From Saprospiraceae bacterium (GTDB lineage Bacteria > Bacteroidota > Bacteroidia > Chitinophagales > Saprospiraceae): a DNA stretch of 64,000 bases. The position numbers were made by a program, and so were the translations under genes. Below are positions 60,183 to 64,000 of this stretch, piece by piece (the first letter of the stretch is position 1; each line of letters begins with the position of its first letter). Where the stretch lies: contig JAHDEC010000009.1 of NCBI GenBank assembly GCA_020629035.1, positions 1 through 64,000 of the forward strand. The letters run 5' to 3'. The notes beneath the pieces were generated by a model. The model saw only the letters and a list, made by a program, of their open reading frames with translations, was not told the DNA's origin and did no database searches.

Positions 60183-60250
60183 CTTTATGGTTCGATTGTT
60201 GTACTTGAAAGATTAGAATTTTTATTAAATGATTTTGCAAACTATAGATT

Positions 60251-61198
60251 ATGATCCACTACCTCCTTACGGAGCAAAGAGAGCTGCGCGAGGTAGATCA
60301 CAATCAATCTTGCAATTGGATTAATGTTTTTCCTCCATTTGAGCCTAACGAACTTGAAGGCCTAGCTCATCGGCTTAATATACCTGCAGATTTTCTTACT
60401 GATTCCCTAGATATCGACGAACGGTCTCGATATGAAAAAGAAGAGACTGCCAAGCTTATACTCGTTAATACACCGATGTTAAATGTAAATGCGCTTGAAA
60501 ACGAGGCCATTTTTATTACGGTACCTATAGGTATAATTATCACGGACGATGTTATAGTGACCATATCACAAGCGGACAATCCTATTCTTAAGCGTTTTAT
60601 AGAAGGTAAGGTTAGAAACTTTAATGCCAGCGATCAACGAAAGTTTATTCTTCAAATTTTCGAGCAAAATACTTTTTGGTTTTTGGAGTGTTTGAAGAAG
60701 TTAAACCTAAAACGTAATCTTATAGAACAAGAATTATATAATAGCAGTCGAAATAAAGAATTAAAGCAACTGCTCAGAATAGAAAAGAGTTTAGTCTTCT
60801 TTGTTAATTCATTAAGTGCAAATGATCTGCTAATGATGAAAATGAAGCGAACTGATTTTCTAAAGATTAGGGGTGATGAGTTATACGAAGATATTTTTGA
60901 AGATGTAATTATCGATAATGGACAGGCTTTAGAAATGTCTAATGTATATACTAATATATTAAGTGGGACGATGGAAGCCTATGCTTCGATTATCTCGAAT
61001 AACATGAATAATTTTATTCAGCGACTTACGGTTGTGACGATTATTTTAATGGTACCAACTTTGGTGGCCAGTTTTTATGGGATGAATTTGACCCATTTGC
61101 CTTTCCAAGAAAGCAGCTACGCATTCTACTTTATCATCGCTTTCTCAATCATTTTGGGGCTTGGGCTCATTTGGTTCTTTAGGAGACACCAAAAATGA
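60251..61198 (+). CDS. corA: CorA-family magnesium/cobalt channel
   Basis: A 315-aa CorA-type divalent cation channel. The cytoplasmic N-terminal domain (about 1-250) precedes two C-terminal transmembrane helices; the pore signature G277-M278-N279 (YGMNLTHLPF) is intact and the second helix is followed by FRRHQK. It is 68 bases after the permease gene, possibly co-transcribed. Selectivity (Mg, Co or Zn) cannot be told. Confidence 0.92.
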   Translation: MIHYLLTEQRELREVDHNQSCNWINVFPPFEPNELEGLAHRLNIPADFLTDSLDIDERSRYEKEETAKLILVNTPMLNVNALENEAIFITVPIGIIITDDVIVTISQADNPILKRFIEGKVRNFNASDQRKFILQIFEQNTFWFLECLKKLNLKRNLIEQELYNSSRNKELKQLLRIEKSLVFFVNSLSANDLLMMKMKRTDFLKIRGDELYEDIFEDVIIDNGQALEMSNVYTNILSGTMEAYASIISNNMNNFIQRLTVVTIILMVPTLVASFYGMNLTHLPFQESSYAFYFIIAFSIILGLGLIWFFRRHQK

Positions 61199-61250
61199 TT
61201 TTTTCTTCTAGTAAATTTCTCCTTTTTTCAAAATAGTATTGATAGAATAG

Positions 61251-61270
61251 TTATCCACATATGTGGATAA
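61251..61270. promoter_or_regulatory. Palindrome of two opposed perfect DnaA boxes
   Basis: TTATCCACATATGTGGATAA is a perfect 20-bp palindrome: TTATCCACA on the plus strand and the same box on the minus strand, separated by TA at the centre. TTATNCACA is the classical DnaA recognition sequence. It lies 244 bases before nrdB. In E. coli DnaA binds ahead of nrdAB and affects its transcription; the same role here is inference. Confidence 0.7.
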
Positions 61271-61407
61271 AACAATGAACATATTATAAAATATTTGTAT
61301 TTATTTTGTAGAACGGTTTTGATGCAAACTAAACAAACCAACTGATTAACCTTTAGCATCGTGTTGAAAACCTAAACAATTACATAACAAAGCTGTATAC
61401 ATACAAA

Positions 61408-61430
61408 AGAAAAATATATGATATTTTTCT
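61408..61430. repeat. Perfect inverted repeat upstream of nrdB
   Basis: AGAAAAATAT (61408-61417) and ATATTTTTCT (61421-61430), 10-bp arms around ATG. It lies 84 bases before nrdB and could be a repressor site or a weak terminator of corA. Confidence 0.5.
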
Positions 61431-61514
61431 AAGGGAAGTAGACTCTTTATTATTTGATTGTTGTACATTAGATATTACAAAAGATTTTAATATAATTTAA
61501 GCCTTCAAAAGACC

Positions 61515-62483
61515 ATGATTGAACCTATTCTGAAAGAAAATCCAAACCGATTCGTAATCTTCCCCGTGGAGCACCATGATATATGGGATTTTTATAAAAA
61601 ATCTGTAGCATCCATATGGACTGTAGAAGAAATAGATTTACATCAAGATCTTTCAGACTGGGTTAATAAATTAAACGATAACGAACGTCATTTTATAAAA
61701 CATGTACTAGCATTCTTTGCTGCCAGTGATGGTATAGTCAATGAGAATTTAGCCGAGAACATGGTGACGGAAGTACAATATACTGAAGCAAAGTTTTTCT
61801 ATGGTTTCCAAATTGCCATGGAAAACATACATTCAGAAACTTATTCTTTATTAATTGATACTTACATAAAGGATAACAAAGAAAAAGATTATCTATTCAA
61901 CGCACTCGAGAATATGGAGTGTGTAAAGAAAAAGGCCGACTGGGCTTTACGATGGATTGACGAAGGAAATTTTGCAGAGCGATTAATCGCATTTGCAGCC
62001 GTAGAAGGTATTTTCTTTTCAGGTTCATTTTGTTCTATTTTCTGGCTGAAGAAAAGAGGACTTATGCCAGGCCTGACTTTTTCAAATGAATTGATTTCGA
62101 GAGATGAAGGAATGCATTGCGATTTTGCATGCTTACTTTATAACCAACATATTGTAAACAAATTAGACAAAGACCTAATTGCTCAAGTCATCACAGATGC
62201 AGTGGAAATTGAGAAAGAATTTGTTACAGATGCTCTACCTGTTAACTTAATTGGTATGAACGCTGAAATGATGTGCGAATACATCGAATTTGTTGCAGAC
62301 CGACTATTAGTATCATTAGGTAACCCTAAAGTCTACAATGCAGATAATCCATTCCCTTGGATGGAAATGATCTCATTACAGGGTAAAACCAACTTTTTCG
62401 AGAAGCGAGTAGGAGATTACCAGAAATCTGGAGTTATGGCTGATAAAGACAAACAAGTCTTTACGCTGGACGAAGATTTTTAG
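61515..62483 (+). CDS. nrdB: Ribonucleotide reductase class Ia, beta (radical) subunit
   Basis: Holds the diiron-tyrosyl radical used to reduce ribonucleotides. The 322-aa protein has iron ligands D72, E103 and H106, the radical Tyr at Y110 (ENIHSETY), and later E/H ligands in AVEGIFFSG and [10 protein letters not shown]. Long identical runs with mammalian R2 ([48 protein letters not shown]) and the ending FTLDEDF show the eukaryote-like subtype. The ending is the docking tail for NrdA. nrdA follows 87 bases later. Confidence 0.97.
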
Positions 62484-62570
62484 GAAACTACAACTACTGA
62501 CTAAGAGACTATCAACCAGAGTATGAAAACTAGAATTGTTTAGTTTTTAACCGAAAAAACATGTATTTCG

Positions 62571-64000
62571 ATGATGCAAGTAATTAAACGTAATGGAAAA
62601 GCTCAAGACGTGAGCTTTGATAAAATAACAGCTAGAATAGCTAAACTATGTTATGGTCTGAACACAAACTATATTGACCATATAGAAATTTCTAAAAAAG
62701 TCATACAAGGTTTATACGATGGTGTAACCACTGTACAATTGGATAATCTAGCCGCTGAAACGGCGGCATCACTAACGACTAAACATCCACAGTTTACGCA
62801 ATTAGCTGCAAGAATTGCCATATCCAATCTACACAAACAAACAAAGAAATCCTTCGCCACTACCATGGAAGGATTGTATAACTACATAGATCCTAAAACC
62901 GGTGAAAAAGCCGGGTTGATTTCTGACACAACCATGGAAATCATTAAGAAAAATGCTGATAGAATAGATGCAGCAATCATCTATGATCGAGATTATAACT
63001 TCGATTACTTCGGGTTTAAAACACTAGAACGATCATACTTATTAAGAATGAACGGTGAGGTAGTAGAAAGACCACAGCACATGCTCATGAGAGCTGCAGT
63101 CGGTATACATGGTGAGGACATTGATGCAGCCATCGAGACTTACAACTACATGTCCGAAAAATGGTTTATTCACGCAACACCTACTTTATTTAATGCGGGA
63201 ACACCTAAACCTCAACTTTCTTCATGTTTCCTTTTAACAGCAACGGAAGATAGTATAAGTGGGATTTTTGAAACATTAACAAGATGTGCAAAAATTTCGC
63301 AGTCAGCTGGAGGAATTGGTTTAAGTATCCACAATGTAAGAGCTAAAGGAAGTTACATAAAAGGCACTGGAGGAACTTCTAATGGAATTATCCCGATGCT
63401 TAAAGTATTTAATGATACAGCTAGATATGTTGATCAAGGTGGTGGGAAACGTAAAGGAGCGTTTGCTATCTACTTAGAGCCATGGCATGCAGATATTAAA
63501 GAGTTTTTAGACTTAAAAAAGAATACCGGTGCTGAGGAGATGCGAGCAAGAGATCTTTTCTACGCAATGTGGATTTCAGATCTGTTTATGGAGCGTGTAG
63601 AGAAAGATACAACTTGGACTTTATTCTGTCCAAACGAAGCACCAGGCTTATGTGATGTTTATGGAGATGAATTTAAAGCACTCTACGAAAAATACGAAGC
63701 AGAAGGGAAGGGGAGAACAACTATCAAGGCTAGAGATCTTTGGTTCTCAATCTTAGAATCACAAATAGAAACAGGTACTCCTTATATATTATATAAAGAC
63801 GCAGCTAACGAAAAATCAAACCAGAAAAATCTTGGTACGATTCGTTCAAGTAACCTGTGTACAGAAATCATGGAATATACTTCCAAAGATGAAGTAGCAG
63901 TTTGTAACCTCGCATCTATATCACTGGTTAAGTTTGTCAACGAAGAAACTAAAACTTTTGATTTCGACAAATTAGTTGAAGTAACAAGAGTTATAACTAG
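62571..64000 (+). CDS. nrdA: Ribonucleotide reductase class Ia, alpha (catalytic) subunit, 5' part
   Basis: Catalytic and allosteric subunit, running off the window. The frame starts at ATG 62571 or 62574. An ATP-cone (about 1-90, [30 protein letters not shown]) gives the overall activity site. Counting from 62574, the active-site cysteines are C218 (LSSCFLL), C429 (SNLCTEI) and C444 (AVCNLAS), the same numbers as in mouse R1, with the N-x-C-x-E motif intact. Roughly 476 residues are visible; the C-terminal half is outside. Confidence 0.97.

Follow-up and report, generated by a model that had tools for sequence, protein, structure and literature searches.

The locus raises the question of which protein reads a palindrome upstream of the class I ribonucleotide reductase (RNR) genes of a Saprospiraceae bacterium, and what is gained by its doing so. 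The window, i.e., the whole 64,000-nucleotide stretch that was analyzed (positions 1 to 64,000 of contig JAHDEC010000009.1), contained between corA and nrdB the sequence TTATCCACATATGTGGATAA, a 20-bp perfect palindrome formed by two perfect TTATCCACA boxes opposed in convergent orientation around a TA center (Table 1). In total, 244 bases lay between the palindrome and the nrdB ATG (61515). The two boxes of the palindrome were the only exact TTATCCACA boxes in the window, where 0.86 were expected and two or more occurred in 22 of 100 shuffles. Convergent exact pairs with a spacer of 0–5 bp were estimated to arise by chance about 1.7e-5 times per 64 kb and 0.002 times per genome. The number of boxes in the window is ordinary; their opposed arrangement is unusual. 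The earlier note on this DNA had described the palindrome and its distance from nrdB just as they were found here, and its view that a single box is plausible by chance but an opposed pair is not agrees with these expectations. The reading favored by the comparisons below, all made at the level of sequence, is that the palindrome serves DnaA as an operator at the nrdBA promoter (probability about 0.77).

TABLE 1. Features of the corA-nrdBA region, in window coordinates.
Feature	Position	Strand	Remark
corA, CorA-type Mg2+ transporter	60251..61198	+	Upstream neighbor; PF01544, E 3.1e-55
Element P: inverted (convergent) DnaA-box pair, 2-bp spacer	61251..61270		Counterpart of the conserved P of relatives
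DnaA box TTATCCACA	61251..61259	+	In relatives, 9-mer enriched both upstream of nrd genes and at the ctaA/oriC locus
DnaA box TTATCCACA	61262..61270	-	Exact 9-mer match
Predicted -7 promoter element TTATTTTG	61301..61308	+	TAnnTTTG-like; starts 40.5 nt from the palindrome center
Single variant box TTTTCAACA	61362..61370	-	In the presumed 5' leader; 9-mer among the top eight nrd/ctaA variants
nrdB, class I RNR small subunit, 322 aa	61515..62483	+	PF00268, E 8.7e-115
nrdA, large subunit	62571..64000	+	Cut by the window end; start judged by eye

By NrdB, the closest named relatives were Saprospiraceae MAGs (Bacteroidota), and the source genome is itself a draft. The nrdA assignment was supported by a match, below the cut-off, to the RNR large-subunit superfamily model TIGR02504 at contig positions 63024–64784. 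Across the 4.08-Mb draft, TTATCCACA was not enriched (72 sites vs. 67 for the reversed pattern), and no second copy of the palindrome was found at up to two mismatches. At three mismatches, three further places matched with a 2-bp spacer (nine in the reversed control) and three with a 3-bp spacer (two in the reversed control).

Conservation before nrdB in relatives had been named in the earlier note as a check. A non-redundant set of 100 family nrdB upstreams was gathered via NrdB alone, blind to the motif, leaving out a locus that started inside nrdB. An exact inverted TTWYYMACA pair (spacer 0–7 bp) was found in 92 of the 100 upstreams, and the reversed control gave none; at 17 of 18 matches the counts were 97 and 3. 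The remaining eight upstreams contained no exact inverted pair. In a smaller first motif-blind survey, the pair was present in 83 of 89 family upstreams; 12 of its 110 loci were on the minus strand and were left out, of which three are part of the 113-upstream set described below and nine were duplicates or too short. Family upstreams share descent, and the counts are therefore not independent events. Half-site sequences varied among the conserved pairs of related loci, and background pairs with at least 17 of 18 matches were scarce: one in 398.8 kb of unrelated stretches from the single-contig relative G087, two in 127 kb around dnaA, and none in 88 kb of the source genome. Boxes before the RNR operon are kept beyond chance in this family, as expected of a DnaA-regulated RNR promoter. 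One relative (G082) had no box within 5.5 kb around nrdB, and at another locus (L083) six box-like 9-mers lay within about 145 bp in this intergenic region.

Exact pairs in the family nrdB upstreams had three spacer lengths: 3 bp (74), 1 bp (33), and 2 bp (14). In the proximal pair, P, the spacer was mostly 3 bp; in some relatives, as in the window, it was 2 bp. In 39 loci with P a second, distal pair, D, whose boxes are 1 bp apart, lay about 65 bp farther upstream. The spacing between the centers of P and D was 64–67 bp in 39 of the 42 loci with both pairs in a set of 113 family upstreams; this set includes 12 loci recruited by motif matches, which were left out of the counts for the 100 upstreams above and for the -7 boxes below. 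At the window locus D was absent and P alone was present.

The -7 promoter element of Bacteroidota follows a TAnnTTTG-like consensus. With a -7 box pattern fixed after inspection of the sequences, a -7-like box started 38–41 or 49–52 nt from the center of P in 78 of the 96 family loci with P, the second class lying one helical turn beyond the first. Such boxes were rare at other positions of the 75 bp scanned. Given this fixed spacing, the predicted operator would be placed just upstream of the expected polymerase site. The same geometry bears on a rival reading, that corA has its transcription terminator or an RNA hairpin in the palindrome, which is improbable in the extreme. A scan did call a terminator-like site here (0.1 expected in shuffles), but on the minus strand, while the plus strand, on which corA lies, had no terminator call. 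A corA terminator also fits poorly with pairs that hold a fixed distance to the promoter element and with the presence of the same element before the class II RNR gene nrdJ at L225, where the upstream neighbor is not CorA by sequence. No Rfam match was found at 60200–62700, on which ground a known RNA was rejected.

If the palindrome is read by DnaA, its boxes should resemble those of the replication origin of the group. In G087, 435 kb were scanned, and the densest box clusters fell at the GC-skew minimum (2.34–2.35 Mb). These clusters were located around ctaA, adjoining scpA, and the position of ctaA at the skew minimum makes it the likely oriC. Several of the boxes lie inside the ctaA coding sequence (L251; G087:C1:2346575-2349400), at similar positions in relatives. 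The ctaA loci of 30 relatives, from 122 genomes with ctaA, contained 303 boxes compared with 35 for the reversed pattern; three of the 30 had none or one. Within 1.5 kb of dnaA no box cluster was found in 30 loci (L148–L177), and DnaA autoregulation was rejected on this basis. In the source genome no cluster was found near the 30 TTATCCACA sites examined, out of 72, or in two further stretches, and neither it nor its two congeners had a ctaA match. The oriC comparison therefore rests on relatives.

The earlier note had offered as an alternative that the palindrome marks the chromosomal replication origin. The box TTATCCACA is a DnaA box, and some relatives, such as L083, are box-rich at this place. 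However, neither the window nor 140 kb of its contig showed a GC-skew extremum at 61 kb. In G087, nrdB was located at 0.30 Mb, about 2 Mb from the skew minimum with its own ctaA box clusters. In the near-complete genome G151, nrdB (4.01 Mb) was at the turn from positive to negative skew, near the terminus (20 sampled stretches), and in G082 about 1.09 Mb separated nrdB from the ctaA box cluster. An origin at the palindrome was rejected as highly improbable, given the skew in two near-complete relatives and the box cluster that lies apart at ctaA.

All 2620 variants within three mismatches of TTATCCACA were compared between nrd upstreams (the 113-upstream set) and 27 ctaA loci; the three ctaA loci with no or one box were left out, a choice that favors the result. 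The leading eight 9-mers were alike at nrd and ctaA: TTTTCCACA, TTATCCACA, TTATCAACA, TTATTAACA, TTTTCAACA, TTACCAACA, TTACTAACA, and TTATTCACA. Seven of the eight were far above the reversed control at both places, and TTACTAACA was weakly enriched at ctaA (13 vs. 7 reversed). An AGTT flank was common to the top 9-mers at nrd and ctaA. Over all variants, the excess at nrd and at ctaA gave a Pearson correlation of 0.70 and a low rank correlation (Spearman 0.09). The DnaA-box consensus of Escherichia coli is TTWTNCACA, and variants such as TTACTAACA and TTATTAACA fall outside it. In the relatives, the boxes before nrdB thus match those of the group's probable oriC in the top 9-mers shared. Since these 9-mers are largely those found around ctaA, DnaA appears to be the best-supported binder; the most economical explanation would be a single protein that reads both places, and the protein expected to do so at an origin is DnaA.

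Of 60 genomes, 58 contained DnaA, including the source genome. Its C-terminal domain carried GGRDHSTV in 28 of 31 loci and a one-letter variant in two more, aligned with GGRDHTTV in the solved DnaA chain 8btg (L148–L177, L366). A DnaA with a recognizable DNA-binding domain is present in the group. The NrdR model TIGR00244 had no match in the 60 genomes, including the source genome (the control was positive in 9 of 14), and NrdR was rejected as the regulator on this result. The NrdR box differs in sequence from the boxes of the palindrome.

A different dimeric transcription factor for RNR and replication genes, with a half-site that resembles the DnaA box, could also bind the palindrome, though this is unlikely. 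Inverted symmetry and near-fixed spacers (3 or 2 bp in P, 1 bp in D) are typical of homodimeric regulators, and the close pairs at the ctaA/oriC loci were tandem, not inverted. In total, 42 close pairs at ctaA loci were tandem (36 with a 3-bp and six with a 2-bp spacer), while one inverted pair had a 2-bp spacer and none had 1 or 3 bp. Before a ctaA-like gene of G120 (L206), judged by eye, there was one inverted pair with a 3-bp spacer. Such a factor would have to share with the ctaA/oriC loci both the top half-site variants and the AGTT flank. Three spacers combined with one half-site would be unusual for a rigid dimer, and the pair also occurs before dnaN. The inverted orientation is the main difference of the predicted DnaA operator from known systems and the main opening for a rival regulator.

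The same element was found before other genes. A relaxed pattern with a 3-bp spacer matched in 132 of 248 relatives; the source genome, where the spacer is 2 bp, was not among them. Among the matches listed, class II nrdJ was downstream of the pattern at L208, L217, L191, and L225. The L225 NrdJ scored above the curated cut-off, the L208 NrdJ was a fragment below the cut-off, and a NrdJ match also covered L191. Upstream of another class I NrdB type, divergent and below the family cut-off (L224 and L226), the pattern was likewise among the matches listed, and the remaining matches listed lay within ORFs or near unrelated genes. A separate nrdJ survey covered 30 of 46 genomes above cut-off; seven of the 30 had no start by the rule used, leaving 23 upstreams. 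An inverted pair with at least 17 of 18 matches was present in 15 of these 23 (reversed, none), and seven had both D and P.

The signal before dnaN was weaker than that before nrdJ. Inverted pairs were found in seven of 30 dnaN upstreams (reversed, none), taken from 59 genomes with a match and including one upstream of only 203 bases. The dnaN upstream of the source genome (L427) had no box. At L402:2619-2639 and in the dnaN upstreams of L408–L411, L413, L417, and L421, mostly weaker inverted pairs were located about 70–200 bp before dnaN. Two one-off pairs were seen elsewhere, 266 bp before a dnaE carrying an intein-splicing domain (L209:3010-3030) and 135 bp before a ParA-like gene (L223:3003-3023).

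Complete D and P pairs were also seen in genomes with only distant NrdB matches, at L404 (3568–3652), L405 (9458–9542), and L406 (9321–9406). In two of these genomes, G080 (L406) and G028 (L404), P and D were beside corA; the element can therefore exist without nrdBA. This would suit a DnaA-titrating or DnaA-reactivating locus, similar to datA or DARS, that merely travels with nrd, and datA and DARS of E. coli are described as containing double DnaA boxes (PMC11317965). Against this, the fixed promoter spacing and the presence of the element before nrdJ and dnaN point to transcription. At L404 the element was followed by a SpoIIE-domain gene (Pfam) and then by a pyrE/pyrF-like gene, and in G155 (L405) it preceded a look-alike, by sequence, of the SpoIIE gene. 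The element may thus serve that operon, and a titrating or reactivating locus is very unlikely.

Outside the family, exact inverted pairs were found in one of 20 upstreams from other families of the order, a hand-picked set, and in one of 26 upstreams from further out, with none in the reversed control of either set. The wider set, made up of the best-matching loci from 296 genomes of which 99 matched, included 25 upstreams from the same class and one from a different class. At 17 of 18 matches, pairs were found in seven of the 20 order upstreams (reversed, none) and in eight of the 26 wider upstreams (reversed, two). Single boxes, counted with a strict pattern picked after seeing the data, numbered 16 in the order set and 17 in the wider set (reversed, 6 and 2), and with a relaxed pattern 27 and 38 (reversed, 10 and 23). 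In another family of the class (L352–L354, L356, L357, L360, and L363), two box-like 9-mers in direct orientation and 20 bp apart were located about 104 and 124 bp upstream of the nrdB start. On these counts, the palindrome looks like a feature of the family, and DnaA boxes before nrdB seem to be a more widespread tendency. The earlier note had placed the link between DnaA and RNR at the level of the phylum; this holds as far as single or differently arranged boxes are enriched outside the family and does not extend to the palindrome, which is rare there.

In E. coli, DnaA is an established regulator of RNR, one input among several (PMC8203912), and the nrdAB operon, which DnaA regulates, is preceded by a pair of DnaA boxes (PMC8203912; PMC11317965). 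The family shares with E. coli nrdAB a DnaA-box pair upstream of class I RNR genes. In E. coli the two boxes are in tandem, 3 bp apart, and one of them is imperfect, whereas the family pairs are inverted with spacers of 2–3 bp, and 39 family loci add the second inverted pair with a 1-bp spacer. The family operator is, in addition, reused across RNR classes, and no NrdR was found (0 of 60 relatives). PMC11317965 describes a preference of E. coli DnaA for box pairs 2–3 bp apart, bound by a dimer, and the pairs tabled there are tandem; it also places DnaA before nrdD, a second RNR gene, and within dnaN. The family pairs share with these double boxes two 9-mers 2–3 bp apart (2 bp in the window, 3 bp in most relatives, and 1 bp in D) and differ in being head-to-head where those of E. 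coli are head-to-tail.

NrdR also controls RNR in E. coli (PMC12176259) and is described as using two operators before RNR genes with a spacing that follows the helix (PMC12051234). The family arrangement is similar in its two helix-phased operators before RNR genes. It differs in its sequence, in that no NrdR was found, and in that its boxes correspond to those of the probable oriC. DnaA has also been proposed to regulate RNR genes in Bacillus subtilis and Caulobacter crescentus (PMC8203912). No report of DnaA boxes at Bacteroidota RNR promoters was found in titles and abstracts, with most subscription literature outside reach, and no word beginning with "bacteroid" was found in PMC8203912.

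Under the DnaA reading, two DnaA molecules would bind the two inverted 9-mers as a dimer. With its center about 40 nt upstream of the -7 element, or a helical turn farther, the DnaA pair could touch RNA polymerase, and in a substantial minority of relatives the distal pair, lying roughly six turns (about 65 bp) farther upstream, may add cooperative binding. Several observations weigh against this reading: the inverted orientation, the 9-mers outside the E. coli consensus, the low rank correlation, the eight family upstreams with no exact pair, the boxless nrdB region of G082 and dnaN upstream of the source genome, the lack of a box cluster at dnaA, and the element beside corA in G080 and G028. 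Activation is the more likely sign of regulation, because the pair is located upstream of the promoter and not over it. RNR transcription would then track how much DnaA is present and in which nucleotide state, and hence replication initiation, a presumed role in the cell cycle.

With the operator conserved and NrdR not found, the family probably uses DnaA to couple nucleotide supply to replication. The link between DnaA and dNTP supply suggested in the earlier note thus gains support from the conserved family upstreams and from 9-mers that are largely those of the probable origin in relatives. A broader proposal is decidedly tentative: that DnaA is a general regulator of RNR classes and of the sliding clamp in NrdR-less Saprospiraceae, perhaps in the wider Bacteroidota, with the head-to-head mode reserved for transcription and tandem boxes for the origin, and with the operator gained independently before non-homologous RNR operons. 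If so, the choice of DnaA between an initiation complex and a promoter complex would depend on the orientation of the boxes.

Overall, in a family where no NrdR was found, the distance between a predicted DnaA-box operator and the promoter is rigidly kept. This operator is seen again before RNR genes of two unrelated classes and, with a weaker signal, before dnaN. The coupling of dNTP supply to initiation is therefore testable in this group. A simple orientation code, inverted at promoters and tandem at the origin, suggests how DnaA might separate its two jobs.
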